A stretch of 54,781 nucleotides of DNA. Origin: Candidatus Aminicenantota bacterium. Its GTDB lineage: Bacteria > Acidobacteriota > Aminicenantia > Aminicenantales > Saccharicenantaceae. Within the stretch, counting starts at the first letter, position 1, and every line of letters starts with the position of its first letter. Below, in pieces: positions 2,580-43,348 of this stretch. Location: assembly GCA_016867635.1 (NCBI GenBank), contig VGJC01000004.1, positions 1 through 54,781 on the forward strand, written 5' to 3'. Below the pieces are notes generated by a model. That model did no database searches. It worked only from the letters and a program-made list of their open reading frames with translations, and was not told the origin of the DNA. The translations under genes and the position numbers were made by a program.

Positions 2580-3418
2580 GCGGCGCGCCGGCGGTCCTGG
2601 CCGAGAGCCTCGTCAAGAGGTATCCGGTCCTCGGGGGGGTCCGGGATATCGTCCGCCGTCCCTTCCGGAAGCGGACGACAACGGCCCTGGACGGCTTGAG
2701 CCTTCAGGTCGGCCGGGGCCGCGCCTTCTGCCTCCTCGGTCCGAACGGGGCGGGGAAGACGACGTTGATCAAGGTCCTGACGACGCTCGTGCTTCCGGAC
2801 GGGGGCCGGGCGCTCGTCAACGGGCATGACGTCGTCCGGCGGCCCGGCCTCGTCAAAGACACCGTCGGCTACGCCATCAACGACGAGAGAAGCTTCTACT
2901 GGCGGCTGACCGGGCGCCAGAACCTGGAGTTTTTCGGGGCCCTGGTCGGGCTCCGCGGGCCCGGCCGGGATGCCAAGATCTCCGAGGTCCTGCGGCTGAC
3001 CGGGCTCGAGGCGGCCGCGGGCCTGAGATTCAACGCGTATTCCACGGGCATGCGACAGATGCTGGCTTTCGCCCGGGCCCTGCTGACCGACGCCGACCTT
3101 CTCTTCGTCGACGAGCCGACCCGCTCGCTCGATCCCCTGGCGGCCGACAAGGTCCGAACCTTTCTGCGGCGGGAGCTCGTGGACCGCAGGGGGAAGACGG
3201 TGTTTTGGGCGACCCACGATCTGGCCGAGGCCGCTTCCATGGCCCACGAGATCGCGGTCATCGACCGCGGCCGGGTCCGGCTCCAGGGGTCCCCGTCCGC
3301 CTTGGCGGGGGGGGCCGCAGGCACGCTGCGGGAGGTTTACGAAAGCGCCCTGGCCGCGGGACGCGGGGCGGACGAGGAAAGGAAGGCCCCGGTCCCGGAG
3401 CAAGGGGGCGGGCCGTGA
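2576..3418 (+). CDS. ABC transporter ATP-binding protein
   Basis: Walker A GPNGAGKTT, Walker B LLFVDEPT, H-loop ATHD; ATG overlaps upstream stop (ATGA). Confidence 0.9.
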   Translation: MSGAPAVLAESLVKRYPVLGGVRDIVRRPFRKRTTTALDGLSLQVGRGRAFCLLGPNGAGKTTLIKVLTTLVLPDGGRALVNGHDVVRRPGLVKDTVGYAINDERSFYWRLTGRQNLEFFGALVGLRGPGRDAKISEVLRLTGLEAAAGLRFNAYSTGMRQMLAFARALLTDADLLFVDEPTRSLDPLAADKVRTFLRRELVDRRGKTVFWATHDLAEAASMAHEIAVIDRGRVRLQGSPSALAGGAAGTLREVYESALAAGRGADEERKAPVPEQGGGP

Positions 3419-4379: not shown

Positions 4380-4949
4380 ATGGCTAAAATAAATTCCCTG
4401 CTGACCGTCGCGGCCGTTCTCCTCTTCGTGCCCGCCCGGGGCGTCGAATTGGGCCCCGAGGTCCGGGCCAAGGCCGAAAAGGTCCAGGCCGCGCTCCGGA
4501 CGATCGAGACGGAGGCGCGAAGGATGAGCCCGGGTCAGAGGTCCATGACCTTCAGCGAAGCGGAGTTCAACGCCTGGATCGCGTTCCGCCTGGACGAGGA
4601 GAAAGAGCCCTACGTCAAGAGCGCCGAATTCAAGCTGCTGGCGGACGACAAGGTCGAAGGGCGGATCCTGCTAGTTCTGGGCCGGAGCCCGGCCGGCGGG
4701 CTTCTCTCCGAGCGCCAGGACCTCGTCTTCTCGGCCGGGTTCGAGGCCCGCGAAGGCCGCATCAGGATCGGCTTGGACAGCCTGTTCCTCGGCACCCAGA
4801 AGCTGTCCCCTTCGGTCATCGACCTCATCATCGGCGTCGTCTCCAGGCTTCAGGGAGCCGAGCCGACCAGCATTCGGGACTGGTACGACCTTCCCCCGGG
4901 CGTGGAGAAGCTGCGGACGCAGCCGGGCCGCCTCGTCGTGATCTATTGA
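4380..4949 (+). CDS. Hypothetical secreted protein
   Basis: Full-length ORF with signal peptide-like N-terminus and RBS; no family recognised. Confidence 0.6.
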   Translation: MAKINSLLTVAAVLLFVPARGVELGPEVRAKAEKVQAALRTIETEARRMSPGQRSMTFSEAEFNAWIAFRLDEEKEPYVKSAEFKLLADDKVEGRILLVLGRSPAGGLLSERQDLVFSAGFEAREGRIRIGLDSLFLGTQKLSPSVIDLIIGVVSRLQGAEPTSIRDWYDLPPGVEKLRTQPGRLVVIY

Positions 4950-30220: not shown

Positions 30221-30297
30221 GTGCCTGTAGCTCAGCTGGATAGAGCGTTGGACTCCGGATCCAAAGGTCGGAGGTTCGAATCCTCTCAGGCACGCCA
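30221..30297 (+). tRNA. tRNA-Arg (anticodon CCG), CCA encoded
   Basis: GTGCCTG/CAGGCAC acceptor stem; anticodon loop CTCCGGA; GGTTCGAATCC T-arm; terminal GCCA. Confidence 0.95.
30280..30297 (+). repeat. 18-nt direct repeat copy 1 (tRNA-Arg 3' end), candidate attachment site
   Basis: ATCCTCTCAGGCACGCCA, identical to 38376-38393. Confidence 0.7.
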
Positions 30298-30390
30298 TTT
30301 CTTGGGACGCCGCGGACCTCATCCCATGTCAATGTTCCACCCAAATTGTTAGTCTTGTGGCAAAATTCGAGGGAGAATGAAGTCCGTGCC

Positions 30391-31365
30391 TCAGGTCCTG
30401 TCCCCGCCGCCGTAGACGCCGATCCTATGGATCAGCTGGTGGCGGCTCTTGACGTCCATTTTGCGGTAGAGGCTGTAGACGTGGCTTTTGACCGTGTGGA
30501 TCGAGATATGGAGCGCGCTCTCGATCTCCTTGTAGCTCTTGCCGTCGATCATGAGCTCGAGGATCTCCATTTCGCGGGCGGAGAGGCCGCGTGCCCGCCC
30601 GATCGCGGGGAGGTCGAATCGCGTTCCCAGGACCTTGCCGAGACTGCCCGCCCAAGGCAGGAAGAAGGCCTTGAGCCAGATGAGGGGCGCGAGATTCGTG
30701 TATAGGCCGAGGAGTTTGGAGAGCGCGAAGGCCCAGAACTCCGCTCCGGCCGGGTTCCAAACGGTCAGGGCCAGGTGCACGGGATAGCGGGCCAGGAACA
30801 GCCAGGCGAAAGCGGCGTCGACCTTCCGCCGTCCCGGATCGTCGGCAATCCAGCGGCTTCCGACAAGCAGCCAGCCGAGCAAAACGATGTCGAGGATGCC
30901 CGGGGGCCAGACAAGGACGAGCCAGAAGGTGTTCTCCGGCCTCGGGGGCGCAAGGGACGGAAAACTCAGGGACAGGAAATACCAGGCCAAAGCCCCGGCG
31001 GCGAAAACCCCCGTCAAGAGAACGATCCATGCAGGCAGGCCCCTGTCCCGGCGCCGGAAAATGAACGCGTAAAGCGAGACGTGGACGCCCAAGACGAGGG
31101 CGGTCAGGACCGGCCATTCGACGAACCTGAACCAAAATGAGAGCCCCGCCAACTGATCCGAGGTCAGATTGCTCTGCCCGTAGGCGCCGAGAAAAGTGAC
31201 CACAGCCAGGGCGTTATAGAAGATCAGGAAGAACCAAAGACCGCCCAGCCGGCTCTGGGCGGAGAGGCGGGACCTTTGGCGGAATTCGACAATGGCCCAG
31301 ACCCCGACGGTCAGGATGAGGACCATGGTCAGGACGTTGAAATGCTTCAAGGCCGGGTATGCCAC
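30391..31365 (-). CDS. Membrane-anchored LuxR-family transcriptional regulator
   Basis: About 7 N-terminal TM helices; C-terminal LSAREMEILELMIDGKSYKEIESALHISIHTVKSHVYSLYRKMDVKSRHQL LuxR HTH; GTG start. Confidence 0.88.
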   Translation of the reverse strand: MAYPALKHFNVLTMVLILTVGVWAIVEFRQRSRLSAQSRLGGLWFFLIFYNALAVVTFLGAYGQSNLTSDQLAGLSFWFRFVEWPVLTALVLGVHVSLYAFIFRRRDRGLPAWIVLLTGVFAAGALAWYFLSLSFPSLAPPRPENTFWLVLVWPPGILDIVLLGWLLVGSRWIADDPGRRKVDAAFAWLFLARYPVHLALTVWNPAGAEFWAFALSKLLGLYTNLAPLIWLKAFFLPWAGSLGKVLGTRFDLPAIGRARGLSAREMEILELMIDGKSYKEIESALHISIHTVKSHVYSLYRKMDVKSRHQLIHRIGVYGGGDRT

Positions 31366-31448
31366 TCCAAGGGAAAGGAATTATAGGCAAACGGGTGCGC
31401 CTGTGGCAAGTGGGCCGCGGACAAAGGGCCGGGCGGCTGCCGAAGGCC

Positions 31449-31497
31449 TCGGGAATCGGTATGATTTCTCGAGATCAGGCGGTTTCCCGATTGCCGG
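31449..31497. repeat. 49-bp intergenic repeat copy 1 (candidate operator)
   Basis: TCGGGAATCGGTATGATTTCTCGAGATCAGGCGGTTTCCCGATTGCCGG; 46/49 identical to 36125-36173. Confidence 0.85.
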
Positions 31498-31552
31498 GGC
31501 TGGCTCCGGGGCGTATGGTACCCTCGAAGAGAATGATAGCCAGGAGAAAACA

Positions 31553-32206
31553 ATGCTTCCAAACGTCCTCTCTCAACTTCAACAGATCGGCACGGGGGCC
31601 GCGTTCATCGTCTTCCCCCTGGTCTTCGTATTCGCTTTTGCCTCTCATCCCCGTCTCCTGAGGCCGCGGCTGCTCCGGCCCGAGGATATCATGCTGCGGG
31701 CGAGGGGGCGCAAGCTCCTGCAACTGGGACATGCCTTGGTCCTTCTCAATACCGCGCTCCTCGTCGTCGCGGCGCTTCACTTCATGAGGATCCTGAGCGC
31801 GGGCCGGGGAGCCTGGGCGGGATTCGTGGGCGCGATTCCTGCGGTCCTGGGCGCTATTATTCTAGCCGCCGACAAAGGGGCCCTGTGCCTGACGATGAGC
31901 GCCCTGGACACGGTCCCCGACGATGAGTTCTCGGCCATGACGCCCGGCCTCCGGGCCATGTTCGCCAAAAAGGGCTGGATGTGGCTCCTCTGGGGGATCG
32001 TGCTCTTGCCGGCCGGTTTTGCCATTCAGGCCGTCGGCCTCCTCCAGGCCCAGGCGCTGCCTTGCTGGGAGAGCATCCTTTTCCTGATCGGGGTGCTGTT
32101 CGTGGGCACGCCGGACGGGCTGGAGATCATCAATCTCGGCGCTTCCCTTCTGATGGCCGCCGCCATGATCCCCTACGGGATCAGGCTCATCGCGGCCACG
32201 TTTTAA
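31553..32206 (+). CDS. Polytopic membrane protein of unknown function
   Basis: Multiple hydrophobic helices; RBS AGGAG upstream. Confidence 0.7.
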   Translation: MLPNVLSQLQQIGTGAAFIVFPLVFVFAFASHPRLLRPRLLRPEDIMLRARGRKLLQLGHALVLLNTALLVVAALHFMRILSAGRGAWAGFVGAIPAVLGAIILAADKGALCLTMSALDTVPDDEFSAMTPGLRAMFAKKGWMWLLWGIVLLPAGFAIQAVGLLQAQALPCWESILFLIGVLFVGTPDGLEIINLGASLLMAAAMIPYGIRLIAATF

Positions 32207-32216
32207 GGAGAATACC

Positions 32217-32768
32217 ATGAACCACAAGCAGAATCGGCGGAGTTTTCTCGCGCAATGCGCGAAATGCGGCGGCGCCTGTTGCGCCCTGCTGGCCTTGAAC
32301 CGGATCTCGCGAGCGAGGCAGACTGCGGTCCCACTAGCCCGGCAAGAGAAGCCCATCGACTTGGCAGCGCTGGCTTATTGCGGGATCCCGCAGGCCTTTT
32401 GCGAGTCAAGGTGCGAGCTCTTCAAGGCCACCCTCGAGAACGATGCCGAGTTGAAGAGAGCCGTCTATGACAAATGGGAAATGAAAAATCGATTCGGCAT
32501 CGAGTTCGAGGCCGATAAGATCTTCTGCTACGGCTGCAAGCCTGGCGACAAGCCCCTGAAGGTGGGGATGGCCGAGTGCGCGGTCAGGACATGCCCCATT
32601 GCCCACGGCATGGAATCCTGCGTTCAATGCGGCAGCCTGGCTTCCTGCGACAAGGCCTTCTGGAAAGAATGGCCGGTTGCTTACGAGCACATCAAGAAGT
32701 TACAGGCCCGATATAGCACCCAGCCGGGAGCGAAAATCTTCGACATTAAAGCGAGGTCATGCCGATGA
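32217..32768 (+). CDS. DUF3795-like Cys-rich protein with RRSFL-type N-terminus
   Basis: CYGCKPGDKPLKVGMAECAVRTCPIAHGMESCVQCGSLASCDK pattern; N-terminus NRRSFLAQCAKCGGACCALLAL. Confidence 0.7.
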   Translation: MNHKQNRRSFLAQCAKCGGACCALLALNRISRARQTAVPLARQEKPIDLAALAYCGIPQAFCESRCELFKATLENDAELKRAVYDKWEMKNRFGIEFEADKIFCYGCKPGDKPLKVGMAECAVRTCPIAHGMESCVQCGSLASCDKAFWKEWPVAYEHIKKLQARYSTQPGAKIFDIKARSCR

Positions 32769-33790
32769 GCTCAGACACCATGAAAGCTATCGTATACACC
32801 GAATTCGGTCCCCCCGACGTCCTCCGACTGCGCGAAGTCGCCAAGCCTGTTCCCGGGAACCACGATGTCCTCGTCCGCGTTCAAGCGGCGACCGTGGGCT
32901 TTGGGGACACGCTGGTCCGCAACTTCGCCGCTGTCTCCCCGCGGAAGTTCCATATGCCGTGGCTGTTCTGGCTCATCGGGAGGCTGAATTTCGGCTTTTG
33001 GAAGCCCCGGATCCACATCCTCGGAAACGAATTCGCTGGGGAGGTCGAAGCCGTCGGCAAGCGGGTCACGCGCTTCAAGAAGGGCGATCAGATCTTCGGC
33101 TATCGTGGGCCCCGCATGGGCGCCTACGCGGAGTACCTCTGTGTCTCTGAGACCGGCATGGTAACCGCCAAGCCGTCGAACATGAGCTATGAGCAGGCCG
33201 CGGCCTGCCCTTATGGGGCCGTTATGGCTCTGGGCCTGCTTCGGAAGCTTCGGCTCCGGACCGGTCAAGCCGTCCTCGTCGTCGGCGCGTCTGGGGGGAT
33301 CGGTCCCGCCGTCGTGCGGCTCGCGAAGTTCCACTTTGGGGCCAACGTGACGGGTGTCTGCGGCGTCGCCCGCCTCGAGTATGTGAGGTCGATGGGCGCG
33401 GACGCGGTCATCGACTACAACCGTGAGGATTTCGCAGACCGCCCTGAAACCTACGACCTGGTCATCGACATTCTGGGCAAAAGCTCTTACGCGCGATGCC
33501 TGCGCGTTCTCCGGCCGCGAGCGCACCTGGTTTACGTAAGCTTCAAGGCTAAGCAACTTCTCCAAATGCTGAGAACGTCCGTCTCCGTCCGGAGGAAAGT
33601 GATCTGCGCCTTGGTCGCCGAGCGGCAGGAAGATTTGATCCTCGTAAGGGAGCTGATGGAGGCAGGTAAGATCCGGCCCGTCGTCGATCGGACCTTTCCT
33701 TTGGAGCAGGTCGCCGAAGCACACCGCTATGCCGAGGGCGGCGCGAAGATGGGCTCGGTCGTCATTTCGCTCGCGCCTGCGGAAGGATAA
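32759..33790 (+). CDS. MDR-superfamily NAD(P)-dependent alcohol dehydrogenase/quinone reductase (paralog 1)
   Basis: GNEFAGEVEAVGKRVTRFKKGDQIFG; VLVVGASGGIGPAVVRLAK. Confidence 0.88.
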   Translation: MPMSSDTMKAIVYTEFGPPDVLRLREVAKPVPGNHDVLVRVQAATVGFGDTLVRNFAAVSPRKFHMPWLFWLIGRLNFGFWKPRIHILGNEFAGEVEAVGKRVTRFKKGDQIFGYRGPRMGAYAEYLCVSETGMVTAKPSNMSYEQAAACPYGAVMALGLLRKLRLRTGQAVLVVGASGGIGPAVVRLAKFHFGANVTGVCGVARLEYVRSMGADAVIDYNREDFADRPETYDLVIDILGKSSYARCLRVLRPRAHLVYVSFKAKQLLQMLRTSVSVRRKVICALVAERQEDLILVRELMEAGKIRPVVDRTFPLEQVAEAHRYAEGGAKMGSVVISLAPAEG

Positions 33791-33800
33791 GGAGACAACT

Positions 33801-35339
33801 ATGAACCGAACGGCCATGAGACATAACGCTTTTGCTTCTCTGGCAATCTTCATAATGCTCTTTTCCGCGTGGCCGCTTCACGCCGCAAACGCTTCGCAAA
33901 GAATCAATAGGCTTATCGAATCGTATTACAAAAGCGGGCAATTCAACGGCACCATTCTGGTCAAGAAAGGCACTGTCATCCTCTACGCGAAGGCGTTTGG
34001 CTTGGCTGATCGGCAATGGAACGTTAAGAACACGCTGGATACAAAATTCTTGATCGGGTCCGTCAGCAAAGCGTACACGGCTTTGATGGTGCTGATCCTG
34101 GCCGGCGAAGGCTTGATCGACCTGAATGCAACCCTCAATACCTATATTCCTCAATATGACGGCCCGGGAAAGAATCAGGTCACGATCCACCAGATGCTGA
34201 CGCATACGTCCGGGATCCCGGATCACGGAGCGATCCCCGATCTTTCCAAAAAGCGGGTCCGCTGGATATACGATTCGGATCAATACCTGGAGTTGGTCAA
34301 GGAAACCTCTTTGAAGTTCGAGCCCGGCACGGGCTTTCAATACAGCGGGATCGCTTACAACTTGCTTGCCATCATGTGCGAGAAGGTGACCCGGAAGGAT
34401 TTTGCCGAGTTACTGAAGCAGAAAATCTTCACTCCTCTCCATATGCGCAATACCACGCTCAACAACAACCTCGCGATCGAATCCAAGCGGGCTTATGGCT
34501 ATGAGTATTACCTGCTGGAAGGGTATAAGCTCCCTTCATATATTTCCATGGATCACTGCAAAGGCAGCGGGGGGATCCTGTCCACCGTCGAAGACATGGC
34601 CAAGTTCAACAACGAGTGCTTCGTGGCTCAAACGCTAACAACAAAATCCCTTTATCAAAGGATGTTCACCCCCCACGTTAAAGACTGGCAGTACTATGGC
34701 TATGGGTGGTGGATCGATACGATCGCGCTGGGCGGCAAGGAAAAAACACTGATCAGTCATGGCGGCTCGACCGACGGATACAAGGCTTACTCGACCAGGA
34801 TCGTGGAAGACCAGACGGATATCATCATTTTGGAGAACGATTATTTCAGGACCGATGTGGGGGTCAAGTGGTGTTACGACATTACCGAAGACATCATCGG
34901 CATTCTGGCGGGCCAGGACGTCCCGGTGGCCAAGAGATCGATCGCCAAGGCCGTCGGGCTGACGATTGGGCAGGCCGGGATCGAGCAGGCCATGGCGCAA
35001 TTATCTCGGCTCAAGAAGAACGATGATTATAGCATCGGCGCGCCGGATTATTTCTATCTCGCTAGGGAACTGGACAATAAACACGGTCTGAAGCAAGCTT
35101 CGATCAGAATATGGGAAGCGGGCTTGGCTGATTTCCCCGACGATTTCGGGCTGAATTACTACTGCGCGGAGACCCTGAGGGGCGTCAACGACGAAAAGGC
35201 CCTCACGCTCTATAATAAATGCGTCAGGCTCTACAACAGCGATGAAAAGAACAAGCGTTACGCCGAGGAATACAAAAAAGCGGTGAGTGCGCTGCGAGGA
35301 AAAGATATCGCTTTTCGAGGAGTCGACGATGTCCGTTAA
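33801..35339 (+). CDS. Serine hydrolase (class C beta-lactamase-like)
   Basis: LIGSVSKAYTALMVL SxxK motif; YSGIAYNLL YxN-type motif; signal peptide. Confidence 0.88.
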   Translation: MNRTAMRHNAFASLAIFIMLFSAWPLHAANASQRINRLIESYYKSGQFNGTILVKKGTVILYAKAFGLADRQWNVKNTLDTKFLIGSVSKAYTALMVLILAGEGLIDLNATLNTYIPQYDGPGKNQVTIHQMLTHTSGIPDHGAIPDLSKKRVRWIYDSDQYLELVKETSLKFEPGTGFQYSGIAYNLLAIMCEKVTRKDFAELLKQKIFTPLHMRNTTLNNNLAIESKRAYGYEYYLLEGYKLPSYISMDHCKGSGGILSTVEDMAKFNNECFVAQTLTTKSLYQRMFTPHVKDWQYYGYGWWIDTIALGGKEKTLISHGGSTDGYKAYSTRIVEDQTDIIILENDYFRTDVGVKWCYDITEDIIGILAGQDVPVAKRSIAKAVGLTIGQAGIEQAMAQLSRLKKNDDYSIGAPDYFYLARELDNKHGLKQASIRIWEAGLADFPDDFGLNYYCAETLRGVNDEKALTLYNKCVRLYNSDEKNKRYAEEYKKAVSALRGKDIAFRGVDDVR

Positions 35340-36120
35340 AGGTTGCCGGTGGCCCTTGGCGGGGTTTATCGCTTGTGTTCTATTCCGGATCATTCCGGTC
35401 CAGGCCATGAGCGCCTCCTTGCCGATTTCGCCCGTCAGGGTCGAGAAGGTCATCTCGTCCAAACTCGGAGAGACGCGGGAGGCCTGGGTGTCGCTGCCCG
35501 ACCGCTATGACGAGACAGGGGACCGCTATCCGGTCATCTATATGCTCGACGGCGAGATCAACTTCAACTCTGGCGTCGACGGGACCAAGGACGGTGGCCG
35601 GGCCGACGCGTTCCTGGATTTCGTCGGCGAGGAGCTGATGGCCCTTGTGGAGAAAAACTATCGGACCGAGCCGTTCCGGGTCCTCTACGGGACGTCCAAT
35701 ACGGGCTTCACGGCCGTCCATGCGCTTTTCCACAACCCCAGGCTGGCCGGCGCCTATGTCGCTGCGAGCGCCACGCTGTCCGTGCCCATTTTTCGCACCA
35801 ATCGGGGGGCCTGGATCCGGGATTTCAAGGGCAGTGACAAGCGGCTTATCCTGTTCATGGGCGAGAACGACCTGCCCACCGTCCTGAGCCAGAATAGCGC
35901 GCTGAAGGAGCAATGTGATCTCCTCGCGCCCACCGGCCTGTCCTGCCGGATGGCCGTCCTGGGAGGCTGCGGACACGTCCCCGGAAACTCCTTGGTCGAA
36001 GGGCTGCGGCTCGTCTTTGAAGGCTGGAAGATCGCGACACCTCTCGGCGAAAAGACGTTCCCTGAAGCGCGCGCCCGGCCCGATGCCGCGGCCCGGCTTA
36101 AAGAACTCAATAAGAAATGA
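35329..36120 (+). CDS. Esterase-type alpha/beta hydrolase
   Basis: YPVIYMLDGEINF; nucleophile-elbow-like YGTSNTGFTAVHALF; signal peptide. Confidence 0.75.
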   Translation: MSVKGCRWPLAGFIACVLFRIIPVQAMSASLPISPVRVEKVISSKLGETREAWVSLPDRYDETGDRYPVIYMLDGEINFNSGVDGTKDGGRADAFLDFVGEELMALVEKNYRTEPFRVLYGTSNTGFTAVHALFHNPRLAGAYVAASATLSVPIFRTNRGAWIRDFKGSDKRLILFMGENDLPTVLSQNSALKEQCDLLAPTGLSCRMAVLGGCGHVPGNSLVEGLRLVFEGWKIATPLGEKTFPEARARPDAAARLKELNKK

Positions 36121-36124
36121 GGCA

Positions 36125-36173
36125 TCGGGAATCGTTATGATTTCTCGAGATCAGGCAGTTCCCCGATTGCCGG
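36125..36173. repeat. 49-bp intergenic repeat copy 2 (candidate operator)
   Basis: TCGGGAATCGTTATGATTTCTCGAGATCAGGCAGTTCCCCGATTGCCGG. Confidence 0.85.
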
Positions 36174-36247
36174 CGGCGGGTCCCGCTGCAGCTTCCGTCT
36201 CCGGTTCTGACGCGGGGGCGGCTGGATAATGGAAAGGATAGAATGAG

Positions 36248-37324
36248 ATGAACACGACCCCAACGACCATGAAAGCGATCGTCTACACCGAATTCGGTCC
36301 CCCCGACGTCCTCCGACTCGAGGATGCGGCCCGGCCCGAGCCCAAGCGCGGAGAGATCCTGGTCCGGGTCTGGGCTTCGAGCGTCAACTTCGGGGACATC
36401 ATGGCCAGAAGCTTCAGGTCCGTGACACCGCGCGGCTTCAACATGCCGTTCCTCTTCTGGTTTGTCGCCAAGATGGCCATGGGCTGGAGGAAGCCGAAGA
36501 GGAGGATCTTGGGGAACGAGTTCGCCGGGGATGTCGAGGCGGTCGGGCGGGACGTCGAGCGCTTCAAGCCGGGCGATCAAGTGTTCGGCTGTGCCAGCGA
36601 CCGCTTCGGCGCCTATGCCGAGTATCTCACGCTGAGCGAGAAGGCCCCGGTGGCGCTCATGCCCGCCAACCTGTCCTACGATGAGGCCGCCGTCATTCCC
36701 TACGGGGCCGTGCATGCCCTCTCGCTCCTGCGCCGGGCCAAGCTCCAGCCGGGGCAGACGATCCTGATCAACGGGGCCAGCGGCGGGATCGGGGCGGCCG
36801 CGGTCCAGATCGCCAAGCATCTTGGGGCCGACGTGACCGCGGTGTGCGGCGGGGCCCGCCTGGACTACGTCCGGGCCCTGGGCGCTGACCGGGCGATCGA
36901 TTACGCCGAGCAGGACTTCACCCGGAGCGGCGAGACCTTCGACGTCGTATTCGATATCCTGGGATTGACTCCGTTTTCGCGCGGCCGGCATTCGCTCGCC
37001 CCCCGCGGCATCATCCTGTACGCCAGCTTCAAGATGCGCCATCTCATGGCAATGGCGCTGACGTCCCGGTCCGGCGGCCGACGGGCGGTCTGCGCCCTCG
37101 CGCCGGGGAGCCTCCAGGACCTGCTCGCGGTCAAGGCGCTGGCGGATGAGGGGAAGCTCAAGGCGATCATCGACAAGCGCTTTCCGATGGAGGAAGCGGC
37201 CGAAGCGCACCGGTATGTCGAGACCGGGCAACGGAAGGGGAGCGTGGTCATAGTGTGCAAAGCGCCGGATGAGGGCCATGGAAGAAACGGATCGCGCGCG
37301 ACGGGACGCCCGCTTTCCGAGTAA
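36248..37324 (+). CDS. MDR-superfamily NAD(P)-dependent alcohol dehydrogenase (paralog 2)
   Basis: GNEFAGDVEAVGRDVERFKPGDQVFG; ILINGASGGIGAAAVQIAKHLGA. Confidence 0.9.
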   Translation: MNTTPTTMKAIVYTEFGPPDVLRLEDAARPEPKRGEILVRVWASSVNFGDIMARSFRSVTPRGFNMPFLFWFVAKMAMGWRKPKRRILGNEFAGDVEAVGRDVERFKPGDQVFGCASDRFGAYAEYLTLSEKAPVALMPANLSYDEAAVIPYGAVHALSLLRRAKLQPGQTILINGASGGIGAAAVQIAKHLGADVTAVCGGARLDYVRALGADRAIDYAEQDFTRSGETFDVVFDILGLTPFSRGRHSLAPRGIILYASFKMRHLMAMALTSRSGGRRAVCALAPGSLQDLLAVKALADEGKLKAIIDKRFPMEEAAEAHRYVETGQRKGSVVIVCKAPDEGHGRNGSRATGRPLSE

Positions 37325-37351
37325 GATGATCAGAATGAAGGAGACGGCATC

Positions 37352-38320
37352 ATGAAAGCCATTGTCTATCGGAAATACGGCTCGCCCGACGTCTTGAATC
37401 TCGAGGACGTCGATAAGCCCGTGCCCAAGGACGACGAGGTCCTGATAGCGGTGCGGGCCGCCGCCCTCAATCGGGGCGATTGGCGGCTTATGAGGGGCAA
37501 GCCGTTCATGGCCCGCATGGCCGGCGGGCTGTTCAAGCCCCGAAAGGCGATCTTGGGCGCGGACGTCGCCGGGCGGATCGAGGCGATCGGCCGGAGCGTC
37601 CGGCGGTTCAAGCCGGGCGACGAGGTCTTCGCCGATATCACGTTCCTCGGCTCCGGCGGCTTCGCCGAATACACAGTGGCCCGCGAGAGCTTGCTGGCTC
37701 TGAAGCCGGCCGGCCTGACCTTCGAGCAGGCGGCCGCCGTGCCCATGGCCGCCGTGACGGCTCTGCAAGGGCTGCGCGACAAGGAGAGGATCCGACCGGG
37801 CCAAAAGGTGCTGATCCACGGCGCATCAGGCGGCGTGGGGACGTTCGCGATCCAGCTCGCCAAGGTTTTCGGAGCCGAGGTCACGGCCGTCTGCGGCCCC
37901 GGGAGCCAGGAGCTGGCCCGATCGCTGGGCGCCGACCGTGTCCTGGACTACACGAGGGAGGATTTCGCAAGAGACGGACGGCGGTATGATCTTATCCTGG
38001 CCGTCAACGGCGATCGTTCGCTGTCGGAGTACAAGCGGGCTTTGGCTCCCGAAGGGATCTATGTCGCCGTCGGGGGCTCCAACAGGCAGATCTTCCAGGC
38101 CATGTTCCTGGGGCCGTTGATGTCGATCGGCCGCCGCAAGAAAATGGGCATCCTCGCGGCGAGGCCGAGCGCATCGGATCTGGATGTCATCAAAGGCTTT
38201 CTGGAAGCCGGGACGATCAGATCCGTCATCGATCGGAGCTTCCCCTTGAGCGAAGGCGCCGAGGCCATGCGCTATCTCGATGCGGGGCACGTCGAGGGCA
38301 AGATCGTCCTGACGATGTGA
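37352..38320 (+). CDS. MDR-superfamily NAD(P)-dependent alcohol dehydrogenase (paralog 3)
   Basis: GADVAGRIEAIGRSVRRFKPGDEVFAD; VLIHGASGGVGTFAIQLAKVFGA. Confidence 0.9.
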   Translation: MKAIVYRKYGSPDVLNLEDVDKPVPKDDEVLIAVRAAALNRGDWRLMRGKPFMARMAGGLFKPRKAILGADVAGRIEAIGRSVRRFKPGDEVFADITFLGSGGFAEYTVARESLLALKPAGLTFEQAAAVPMAAVTALQGLRDKERIRPGQKVLIHGASGGVGTFAIQLAKVFGAEVTAVCGPGSQELARSLGADRVLDYTREDFARDGRRYDLILAVNGDRSLSEYKRALAPEGIYVAVGGSNRQIFQAMFLGPLMSIGRRKKMGILAARPSASDLDVIKGFLEAGTIRSVIDRSFPLSEGAEAMRYLDAGHVEGKIVLTM

Positions 38321-38375
38321 TCGGAGGGCGCGAACCGCGAGGCTCCTTATAATTCGGCGCTCCGCCGTTCTCCGG

Positions 38376-38393
38376 ATCCTCTCAGGCACGCCA
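38376..38393 (+). repeat. 18-nt direct repeat copy 2 of the tRNA-Arg 3' end
   Basis: ATCCTCTCAGGCACGCCA. Confidence 0.7.
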
Positions 38394-39771: not shown

Positions 39772-41190
39772 ATGAGAAATCCGTTCCGTAGGCTTAGCGT
39801 CTCTCTGGCCCTGGCGATCCTCGCGGGCTCACTGCCGGCTGCGCGGCTTTCGGCCGGTCCGCTCCTTTTCGACCGCGAAGAGTATGCCGCCCGACGAGCC
39901 CGGCTCATGGACAAGATCCCCGACGGTGTCGCGGTCTTCCTTGGCGCGACCGCCTCCGCGACCGACCGGGCCTTCCGCCAGGGGCACGATTTCGGCTACT
40001 TTACGGGCGTCGAGGTCCCCGACGCCAATCTGGTCATCGACGGCTTGCGCAGGCAGAGCATCCTGTTCTTCACTATCAGCGAGAAAGAGGCCGAAGGCGA
40101 GGGCCTTCCCCCGGAGCTCGTCCGCGATCCCCAGGCGGTCACCGGGGTCGACCGTGCCCTGCCGGCCGAACAGTTCGGGACATTCCTCGCGGGACTCGCC
40201 CAAAGGACGCCCGTCATCTACACGATGTTCAAGCCCGAGGAGCTCGGCCCCGAGAACTCCAACGAGAAATTCAACGTCCTGCAGAGAACGATGACCACGA
40301 ACCCGTGGGACGGCCGCCTGACGCGCGAGCTCCAGTTCGTCCGCGTCCTTCGCGACCGGTTCCCCCAGGTCGAGATCCGCGACTGCTCGCCCCTGGTCTG
40401 GGACCTCCGCAAGGTCAAGACCCCGGCCGAGCTCGACGTCCTCCGGCGCGCCGTCCGGGTCGGCGTCGAGGCCCACAACGAGGTCATCCGCTCGACCCGC
40501 CCGGGGGTGGCCGAAAAGTCCTTGGAAGCGGTCTTCCAGTTCGTCTGCCGCCTGCGAGGGGCCGTCGACATGGCCTATCCGCCCATCCTCATGTCCGGCA
40601 AGAACCACGCCTTCGGTCATTATCACAAGTACGACCGGACGCTCGCCGCCGGCGACTTCATCATCCTCGACGCCGGTCCCGCGGTGGAAGACTACCACGT
40701 CGACATCTCGACGACCTTCCCGGCCTCGGGCAAGTTCACTCCGCGCCAGAAGGAGCTCTACGAGGCGGCCCTGGCCGTGCGCGACGTCTGCCTGGCGACC
40801 TACCGTCCGGGGCTGACCTTTCGGCAGGTCGGCGCCGCGATCGAGGCCATGCTCAAAGCGAAGAAGCTGGAGGCCTACGCCGGGGATTTCCGGGGCGTCA
40901 TCCGCTACGGCGGCTACAACCACATGATCGGCCTGGCCACCCATGACGTCACCGGGACGTTCGCCGGGCCCGACGAGGTCCTCGTGCCCGGCCTTGTCTT
41001 CGCCTGCGACATCCAGCTCTTCCGCCTCGAGGAGGAGATCGGCATCCGGATCGAGGACACGGTGGCCATCACCGGGACGGGCTGCGAGAACCTGTCGGCC
41101 GGCGTGCCCCGGACGGTCGCCGAGATCGAGGCCTTTATGAAAAAGGACGGCCTCCTCCAGCTTTACGACGGCGCGCGCCCGAAGCGTTGA
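39772..41190 (+). CDS. Xaa-Pro aminopeptidase (M24), secreted
   Basis: GHYHKYDRTLAAGDFIILDAGPAVEDYHVDISTTFPASGKFTPRQKELYEA; HMIGLATHDVTG; IEDTVAIT. Confidence 0.9.
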   Translation: MRNPFRRLSVSLALAILAGSLPAARLSAGPLLFDREEYAARRARLMDKIPDGVAVFLGATASATDRAFRQGHDFGYFTGVEVPDANLVIDGLRRQSILFFTISEKEAEGEGLPPELVRDPQAVTGVDRALPAEQFGTFLAGLAQRTPVIYTMFKPEELGPENSNEKFNVLQRTMTTNPWDGRLTRELQFVRVLRDRFPQVEIRDCSPLVWDLRKVKTPAELDVLRRAVRVGVEAHNEVIRSTRPGVAEKSLEAVFQFVCRLRGAVDMAYPPILMSGKNHAFGHYHKYDRTLAAGDFIILDAGPAVEDYHVDISTTFPASGKFTPRQKELYEAALAVRDVCLATYRPGLTFRQVGAAIEAMLKAKKLEAYAGDFRGVIRYGGYNHMIGLATHDVTGTFAGPDEVLVPGLVFACDIQLFRLEEEIGIRIEDTVAITGTGCENLSAGVPRTVAEIEAFMKKDGLLQLYDGARPKR

Positions 41191-41206
41191 AAGATGAGGT
41201 AAGAAT

Positions 41207-43348
41207 ATGAAAAGAAGATCCCTCTTTGTCGTCCTGACAGCTCTCTTCGTTCTCGTCGCCTCCCTGCCGGTTCTCGGCCAGGGCGTGGACTGGTCGACCA
41301 AGCCGCTGCAGTCCGAGCGCGCCCGGTCTTACGACGCGCTCCACTACCTGATCAAGATCCGCCTCGACCTCGACCGGAAAGCCTTCGAGGGCGTGACCAC
41401 CGTCATCGCCACCTCCCTGCGGGAGGGCCTCGAGACCTGTGTCCTCGACGCCGAGGAGTTCACCGTGACCTCCGTCCTCGACGCCGACGGCCGGCCGCTC
41501 GCCTTCGACCAGACGGCGACCGAGCTCGCCGTCCGTCTGGGGCGGCCCTACAAGTTCGGCGAAGAGATGACCTTCACCTGCTTCTATCACGGGCAGGACC
41601 CGAAGATCGGGCTGCGGTTCGCCGCGGAAACCGCCGACAACCCCCGGATCGTCTTTTCCGACTCCTGGCCCACGAACGTCCACCACTGGTTCCCCTGCTT
41701 CGACTACCCGAACGACAAGGTCACCAACGAGATCGTGGCCACGGTCGAGCGCGGGCTCAAAGTCGCCGCCAACGGCCGGCTGGTCGGCGTCTTCGAGGAT
41801 CCGGCGGCCGGCACGGTGACCTATCACTGGTCCCAGGACCAGCCCCACTCGACCTATCTCATCTTCCTGGCGGCCGCGCCTTACGTCGTCGTCCGGGATT
41901 CCTATAAGACCCTCCCGATAAGCTACTGGGTCTATCCGCAGGACGAGGCCAAGGCCGGGCCGACCTACGGCAAGACCCCTAAGATGATGGAGTTCTTCGA
42001 CCGCATCTACGGGTACGATTACCCCTGGCGGAAATACGACCAGATCTCGGTGCCCTCCGGCGGCGGGGCCGAGAGCACCTCGGCCACGGCCATGACCCAC
42101 AGGATCATGGTCGACGAGAGGGGAGAGCCCGACTTCCCGGCCATCGGCATCGTCTCCCACGAGCTGGCCCATCAGTGGTGGGGCAACCTCGTCACCCTCC
42201 GCAGCTGGGCCCACGCCTGGATCAACGAGAGCTTCGGGACCTACTCGGACTACCTCTACCACCGCTTCGAGATGGGCGAGGACGAGGGCGCGCTCAATCT
42301 CCAGAACAAGCTCGACTCCTATCTCCGGGAAGCCAAGACCCGCTACATCCGGCCGATCGTCACCGACCGCTACGAAAAGCCCGGCGACATGTTCGACGCC
42401 CACACCTATCCCAAGGGGGCCCGCGTCATCCATATGCTCCGCTCCCTTCTCGGCGACGAGCCGTTCTTCAAGACGATCAGCCATTTCCTCCATCGCTACG
42501 CGTTCGACGCCGTCGACACCGCCGACTTCATCCGCTCGGTCAAGACCGTTACCGGTCAGAACCTCGACTGGTTCTTCGACCAGTGGCTGTTCAAGCCCGG
42601 CCACCCGGTCTTCGAGGTCAAGAGCGAGTGGGACGCGGACGCCAAGGTCGTCCGGCTCGCGGTGGCCCAGGTCCAAAACCTCTCGAAGGGCGTTCCCGTA
42701 TTCCAGATGCCCGTGGCCATCAAGCTCGTCACGGGCTCCGGGACGGACATCCAAAAGATCTGGGTCGAGAAGCGGGAGGCGACCTTCGAGCTGCCGCTCG
42801 GAGAGCGGCCTCTGCTGGTACGGTTCGACGCGGACAACGTGCTCATCAAAGAGATTACTTTCCCGAAGGGAAGTGACGAGCTTCGCTTTCAGCTCGACAA
42901 CGACGACGTTATCGGCCGGATGGAGGCGGCCGGTGCGCTTGCGTCCTTCAAGGACGATCCGCGAATCGCAAGGGCGCTCGTTTCCAGCCTCCGGGATGAC
43001 CCGTTCTGGGCGGTCCGCAAGGGCGCCCTCGAGGCCCTGGCCAAGATCGGCCCCAAGGACGGCGCGGCCGTCTTCAAGAGAGCCTGCGGGGACAAGGATC
43101 CGCAGGTCCGGGCCGCGGCCCTCGTCGCCCTGGGGGATCTCAAAGACAGGAAGAACCTCGCGTTCTACATGGACCTTTTCCGGAAGGACCCGAGCTACCG
43201 GGTCCAGGCCGAGGCCTTAACGGCCATCGGCAAGACGGGCGATCAATCGGCCGTCCCGTTCCTCAGGCAGGCCGCGACCGTCCCTTCCTACCGGAACATG
43301 GTGGCCCGGGCCGCTGAGAAAGCCCTGGGGCTCATCCAAGATCGATAA
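41207..43348 (+). CDS. M1-family metallopeptidase with C-terminal HEAT-like repeats
   Basis: SHELAHQWWGNLVT...NESFGTY (HExxH-18-E); HEAT-like C-terminus; signal peptide. Confidence 0.92.
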   Translation: MKRRSLFVVLTALFVLVASLPVLGQGVDWSTKPLQSERARSYDALHYLIKIRLDLDRKAFEGVTTVIATSLREGLETCVLDAEEFTVTSVLDADGRPLAFDQTATELAVRLGRPYKFGEEMTFTCFYHGQDPKIGLRFAAETADNPRIVFSDSWPTNVHHWFPCFDYPNDKVTNEIVATVERGLKVAANGRLVGVFEDPAAGTVTYHWSQDQPHSTYLIFLAAAPYVVVRDSYKTLPISYWVYPQDEAKAGPTYGKTPKMMEFFDRIYGYDYPWRKYDQISVPSGGGAESTSATAMTHRIMVDERGEPDFPAIGIVSHELAHQWWGNLVTLRSWAHAWINESFGTYSDYLYHRFEMGEDEGALNLQNKLDSYLREAKTRYIRPIVTDRYEKPGDMFDAHTYPKGARVIHMLRSLLGDEPFFKTISHFLHRYAFDAVDTADFIRSVKTVTGQNLDWFFDQWLFKPGHPVFEVKSEWDADAKVVRLAVAQVQNLSKGVPVFQMPVAIKLVTGSGTDIQKIWVEKREATFELPLGERPLLVRFDADNVLIKEITFPKGSDELRFQLDNDDVIGRMEAAGALASFKDDPRIARALVSSLRDDPFWAVRKGALEALAKIGPKDGAAVFKRACGDKDPQVRAAALVALGDLKDRKNLAFYMDLFRKDPSYRVQAEALTAIGKTGDQSAVPFLRQAATVPSYRNMVARAAEKALGLIQDR

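Follow-up and report, generated by a model that had tools for sequence, protein, structure and literature searches.

An 8.1-kb segment bounded by tRNA-Arg(CCG) 3' ends in a Candidatus Aminicenantota genome: a probable decayed, integrase-less island with a putative regulon

The question raised by this locus is whether the recurrence of a tRNA-Arg 3' end 8.1 kb downstream of the gene itself marks an integrated genomic island, and how a segment lacking an integrase could have been placed there. The window analyzed here is the entire contig C4 (54,781 nt) of a Candidatus Aminicenantota MAG comprising 2.66 Mb in 298 contigs. A sequence-only reading had reported an exact 18-nt repeat of the tRNA-Arg(CCG) 3' end in the same orientation, and ATCCTCTCAGGCACGCCA was indeed found on one strand at both 30280-30297 and 38376-38393. 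The repeat is not attributable to chance, since 0.10 occurrences with up to three mismatches were expected and none of 100 shuffles gave two. The spacing from glnS to tRNA-Arg(CCG) is 61 bp, and ARAGORN called no second tRNA in the window.

The downstream copy exceeds the 18 nt originally reported. It comprises 24 nt that read CTCCGGATCC and then directly TCTCAGGCACGCCA, spanning the anticodon loop to CCA minus 21 nt, and this internal deletion falls between two ATCC repeats. Because the repeated att core spans the anticodon loop to CCA, the attR can be regarded as a tRNA 3' half; both att sites of the segment are present, the right one being short of 21 of 45 nt. The 45-nt core had no exact match among IMG/VR viral contigs. 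A short perfect inverted repeat, CGGCG-CTC-CGCCG, is also present in the right arm, a little 5' of the core. The features of the locus are listed in Table 1.

Table 1. Positions of the features in and around the segment downstream of tRNA-Arg(CCG), in window coordinates
Feature	Position	Strand	Remarks
tRNA-Arg(CCG), intact	30221..30297	+	ARAGORN, alignments; positions 33-77 (30253-30297) form the att core, attL side
Membrane-anchored LuxR-type regulator	30391..31365	-	several hydrophobic stretches in the N-terminal part, GerE HTH domain at the C terminus; 94 bp from tRNA
Operator 1 (putative)	31446..31497		TCGGGAATCGGTATGA-N17-GTTTCCCGAT; between luxR and next gene
Probable membrane protein	31577..32206	+	call of the sequence-only reading; no Pfam family; alternative start 31553
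DUF3795 protein	32217..32768	+	
MDR-type oxidoreductase 1 (MDR1)	32759..33790	+	
Serine beta-lactamase-fold hydrolase	33801..35339	+	PF00144; 84-86% identity to G009 and G007 copies
Putative esterase	35329..36120	+	PF00756
Operator 2 (putative)	36122..36172		upstream of MDR-type oxidoreductase 2
MDR-type oxidoreductase 2 (MDR2)	36248..37324	+	
MDR-type oxidoreductase 3 (MDR3)	37352..38320	+	
Element-side right arm	38348..38369	+	TATAATTCGGCGCTCCGCCGTT; common to att copies of G009 (21/22, 20/22) and G008
Decayed attR (putative)	38370..38393	+	sequence alignment; tRNA positions 33-42 and 64-77

The 8.1-kb segment beside tRNA-Arg harbors eight genes, and the accessory-type gene list given earlier (LuxR, membrane protein, DUF3795, three MDR oxidoreductases, beta-lactamase-like hydrolase, esterase) agrees with the domain annotation, with no Pfam match for the membrane protein. 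No recombinase or transfer gene is among the eight. The lower GC content noticed in places was borne out over the segment as a whole, at 60.9% compared with 66.7% for the remainder of the window; the 8.1-kb stretch of minimum GC in the window (60.7%) overlaps the segment. In addition, the segment genes were set apart from the rest of the window's genes by their codon usage (Mann-Whitney p=1.3e-4), mainly owing to the genes for DUF3795 (z -3.7), MDR1 (-2.4), and the beta-lactamase-like hydrolase (-4.4), and the codon use of two of the eight genes, those for MDR2 and MDR3, is host-like.

The luxR gene was found in five of 94 genomes of the order. It also occurred in five of 396 genomes sampled across the phylum, one of these being an additional, distant homologue (43%). 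The homologues in G002, G007, G009, and G034 share 74-81% identity, and the distribution of the luxR cargo among relatives is patchy, as is typical of islands. A conserved 43-nt dyad, present twice in the segment as operators 1 and 2, also precedes block genes in the other luxR carriers. A search of the 94 genomes with up to three mismatches recovered it in precisely the five luxR-bearing genomes, confined to the blocks, and a control search with the reversed dyad gave zero matches. We infer from this co-occurrence that the dyad is the operator of the LuxR regulator, and the cargo would then resemble a self-contained regulon, composed of a regulator and its own putative operators.

The same block was found at other tRNA-bounded sites. 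In G007, luxR and the genes for DUF3795, the beta-lactamase-like hydrolase, the esterase, and MDR lie in a 12.1-kb interval with tRNA-Arg(UCU) on one side and a copy of its 3' half on the other, and in G002, luxR and the DUF3795 and MDR2 genes are enclosed by two CCG 3'-half copies. An inherited syntenic block was ruled out by this patchy distribution and these differing contexts. The block might nevertheless be an ordinary clustered regulon, with the 18-nt repeat marking some other, older or smaller insertion (for example, of the low-GC part only, or of a neighboring element) whose boundaries coincide with it by chance. The host-like composition of MDR2 and MDR3 would fit this explanation, as would the gene blocks of G009 and G034, which have no tRNA or tRNA half nearby. 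However, the window, G002, and G007 all have luxR at 53-94 bp from the att core or tRNA end, and in each of them the block is followed by a distal att copy, which makes such a coincidence improbable.

The organization of the tRNA-Arg(CCG) locus in relatives provides further evidence. Other Ca. Aminicenantes genomes of the genus have intact 45-nt 3' halves repeated downstream of tRNA-Arg(CCG) in the same orientation, often in arrays; most begin at tRNA positions 28-36, and they end at position 77 (CCA). Three such halves were found in G002 and two each in G003 and G009, with G004 among the carriers as well, while three to four are located on a G008 contig without the tRNA itself and further single halves on other contigs. 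Among named records, nearly all matches to the tRNA core were from Candidatus Aminicenantes or Acidobacteriota MAGs. The sequences flanking the cores group into families, one of right arms of 75 nt with 81-85% identity among G002, G004, and G008, and a second common to G009, G008, G003, and G006. The terminal 22 nt of this second arm precede the core of the window copy and match G009 at 21 of 22 positions (no other 22-mer of the window exceeds 15/22; local alignment E=8e-7). This identifies the copy as an element-chromosome junction of that arm family. For the left arm, no convincing match was obtained in any relative compared, and DNA similarity between the window and G002 begins only at luxR.

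Sister genomes with an empty site had been proposed as a check on insertion. At the CCG locus of the window this check yielded no such site, as no empty site carrying both window flanks was found among the relatives examined, and gltX, glnS, and tRNA-Arg occur together only in G005. An empty site was available, however, for an element of this kind at tRNA-Arg(UCU). In G010 and G005, tRNA-Pro and tRNA-Arg(UCU) precede a conserved gene for a 576-aa protein, which lies within about 300 bp of the latter tRNA. In G004, an insertion of 7.9 kb separates tRNA-Arg(UCU) from this gene; its far end is a 51-nt 3'-half copy, beyond which the same flank and gene resume. Set side by side, these states reveal a clean insertion accompanied by duplication of the 3' half. 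In G011, tRNA-Arg(UCU) 3'-half copies precede the same 576-aa gene. As to the right flank of the window, its M24-M1 peptidase pair (39772-43348) is conserved in G001, G002, G003, G008, G034, and G041, where it is located elsewhere.

Other intervals of various sizes were observed next to tRNA halves. In G007 (L071, 702-1637), an 866-bp unit lies between two tRNA-Arg(UCU) 3' halves and contains two small ORFs, one encoding DUF5674 and one without identification; this unit is among the smallest. On contig C49 of the window's own genome (L064), tRNA-Thr(CGT) at 3254-3329 is followed about 1.5 kb on by a 3'-half-like copy (~4862-4903), the first part of which matches tRNA-Thr and the end tRNA-Arg(CCG), and the interval holds one large ORF (448 aa) on the opposite strand. 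This interval may represent a further segment of the kind within that genome.

The reported absence of an integrase from the segment was upheld by the gene annotation and by a genome-wide search for integrases and resolvases, which found none on the window contig and hence no tyrosine recombinase there. A resident integrase elsewhere in the genome was also considered and rejected, as only two full-length integrase-family genes and a contig-edge fragment were found; the two genes resemble a conserved pair found across almost all genomes of the genus and are taken, from count and score only, as XerC/XerD-like. We compiled by hand 20 att-bounded segments at two tRNAs in eight genomes, the window segment included, each defined as the DNA between neighboring core copies on one contig. 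Eighteen lack recombinase genes; the two that have them are both large and occur in relatives. Tyrosine recombinases number two in the G009 segment, where the end of one is about 25 bp away from an att copy; the G003 segment has one tyrosine and one serine recombinase. G009 encodes a 461-aa integrase at L043, 16960-18345. In G003, a large serine recombinase gene (L032, 14679-16325) runs antiparallel to tRNA-Arg(CCG) and shares the tRNA's last 12 bases. ORFs conserved beside the att copies of relatives were examined as candidate new recombinases and proved to encode a DEAD-box helicase and radical-SAM/B12 proteins.

With recombinase genes absent here and from most segments, the block could also have arrived by homologous recombination at flanking tRNA and cargo sequences, as a replacement after DNA uptake without any site-specific recombinase. 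We regard this route as quite improbable, given that conserved arms of up to 75 nt beside the cores, together with cores that start at nearly the same point of the anticodon loop, typify site-specific integration and that recombinases are present in two att-bounded segments. A reading of the downstream copy as a lone tRNA pseudogene or accidental remnant, uninformative on the enclosed genes, would suit its short, internally deleted form and its not being called a tRNA by ARAGORN, but this is barely plausible and was rejected, since the copy has no 5' half, shares its anticodon-loop starting point with the copies of relatives, follows 22 nt that form the element arm of G009 and G008, and delimits a gene block that is tRNA-bounded in two other genomes. 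The tRNA remnant that the sequence-only reading had offered as an alternative, from the preceding CTCCGGATCC, thus stands as a description of the copy, which is a tRNA 3' half, and does not contradict integration.

Taken together, the att anatomy, the shared arm, the cargo at other tRNA-bounded sites, and the co-occurrence of operator and regulator suggest that 30298-38393 is very probably a decayed island, mobilizable in cis or trans, that was site-specifically integrated at the tRNA-Arg(CCG) 3' half and carries a putative regulon. Integration at a tRNA 3' end without an integrase, as first proposed, is supported by the homologous att arrays, the common arm, the empty and filled UCU sites, and the block at a different tRNA. 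On the left, the tRNA would have come through the insertion intact; on the right, a second 3' half would have been left, which would afterwards have lost 21 nt by deletion between the ATCC repeats. Because the island encodes no recombinase or transfer gene, we infer that it was moved by the recombinase of another element, which may have been a tyrosine or serine integrase, acting either in trans or, with a neighboring element, in cis. The deleted right core suggests that the island has probably become fixed or can be excised only poorly. The LuxR-type regulator would bind the dyad before its divergent gene and before the oxidoreductase and hydrolase genes.

A hallmark of islands integrated at tRNA genes, the tRNA 3' end repeated directly at the distal boundary, is present here, and the integrase plus transfer or structural genes of an ICE/IME or prophage are absent from the island. 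An integron cassette array would be expected to have an IntI integrase and attC sites, and the window contig is devoid of tyrosine recombinases. CIMEs, which form by decay and tandem accretion (PMC5704250), resemble it in having att sites at both ends and no integration or transfer genes, and relatives of the island likewise occur in tandem at one target gene; in contrast, the right att of the island has a 21-nt deletion, and its mobility and a helper element in the same genome would be hypothetical. The ssrA islands of Dehalococcoides are similar in that multiple tandem islands are bounded by an RNA-gene 3' end with conserved nucleotides beside the repeat, and about half lack an integration module (PMC3146451). 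Their repeat, however, is a 20-bp tmRNA sequence, accompanied by a module with a serine recombinase (PMC3146451). The Aminicenantes repeats are tRNA 3' halves of about 45 nt belonging to several tRNAs; two large segments have tyrosine recombinases, and one of the two also has a serine recombinase. The additive flexible genomic islands of Methylophilaceae also show variable cargo (330 bp-42 kb) at repeated tRNA ends, but belong to another phylum and involve tRNA-Lys and 20-nt repeats (PMC10872708). Tycheposons, as far as they are described in PMC10872708, are likewise cargo-carrying and tRNA-bordered; by that account they encode a tyrosine recombinase, which the island lacks. Nothing specific on islands or integrases of Aminicenantes was found among the literature matches listed, which is weak evidence of absence. 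The general type, tandem islands at RNA 3' ends of which many lack an integrase, is known, and this case is an addition to it from a little-studied phylum.

A broader and rather unlikely proposal is that tRNA genes of Ca. Aminicenantes (Arg-CCG, Arg-UCU, and possibly Thr-CGU) serve as platforms for cassette arrays, in which mostly integrase-less units of about 0.9-16 kb with conserved ends would be joined head-to-tail at 3' halves by helper recombinases in trans, and regulons would switch between isoacceptors. If true, this would amount to integron-like gene capture built on tRNA halves. The presence of the same cargo at two arginine tRNAs raises the question of which recombinase can use both. 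For a phylum without well-studied mobile elements, these results point to a route of accessory-gene gain via tRNA-half-bounded, mostly integrase-less segments, and a regulator that travels with its own operators suggests that an entire control circuit may move as a single unit.
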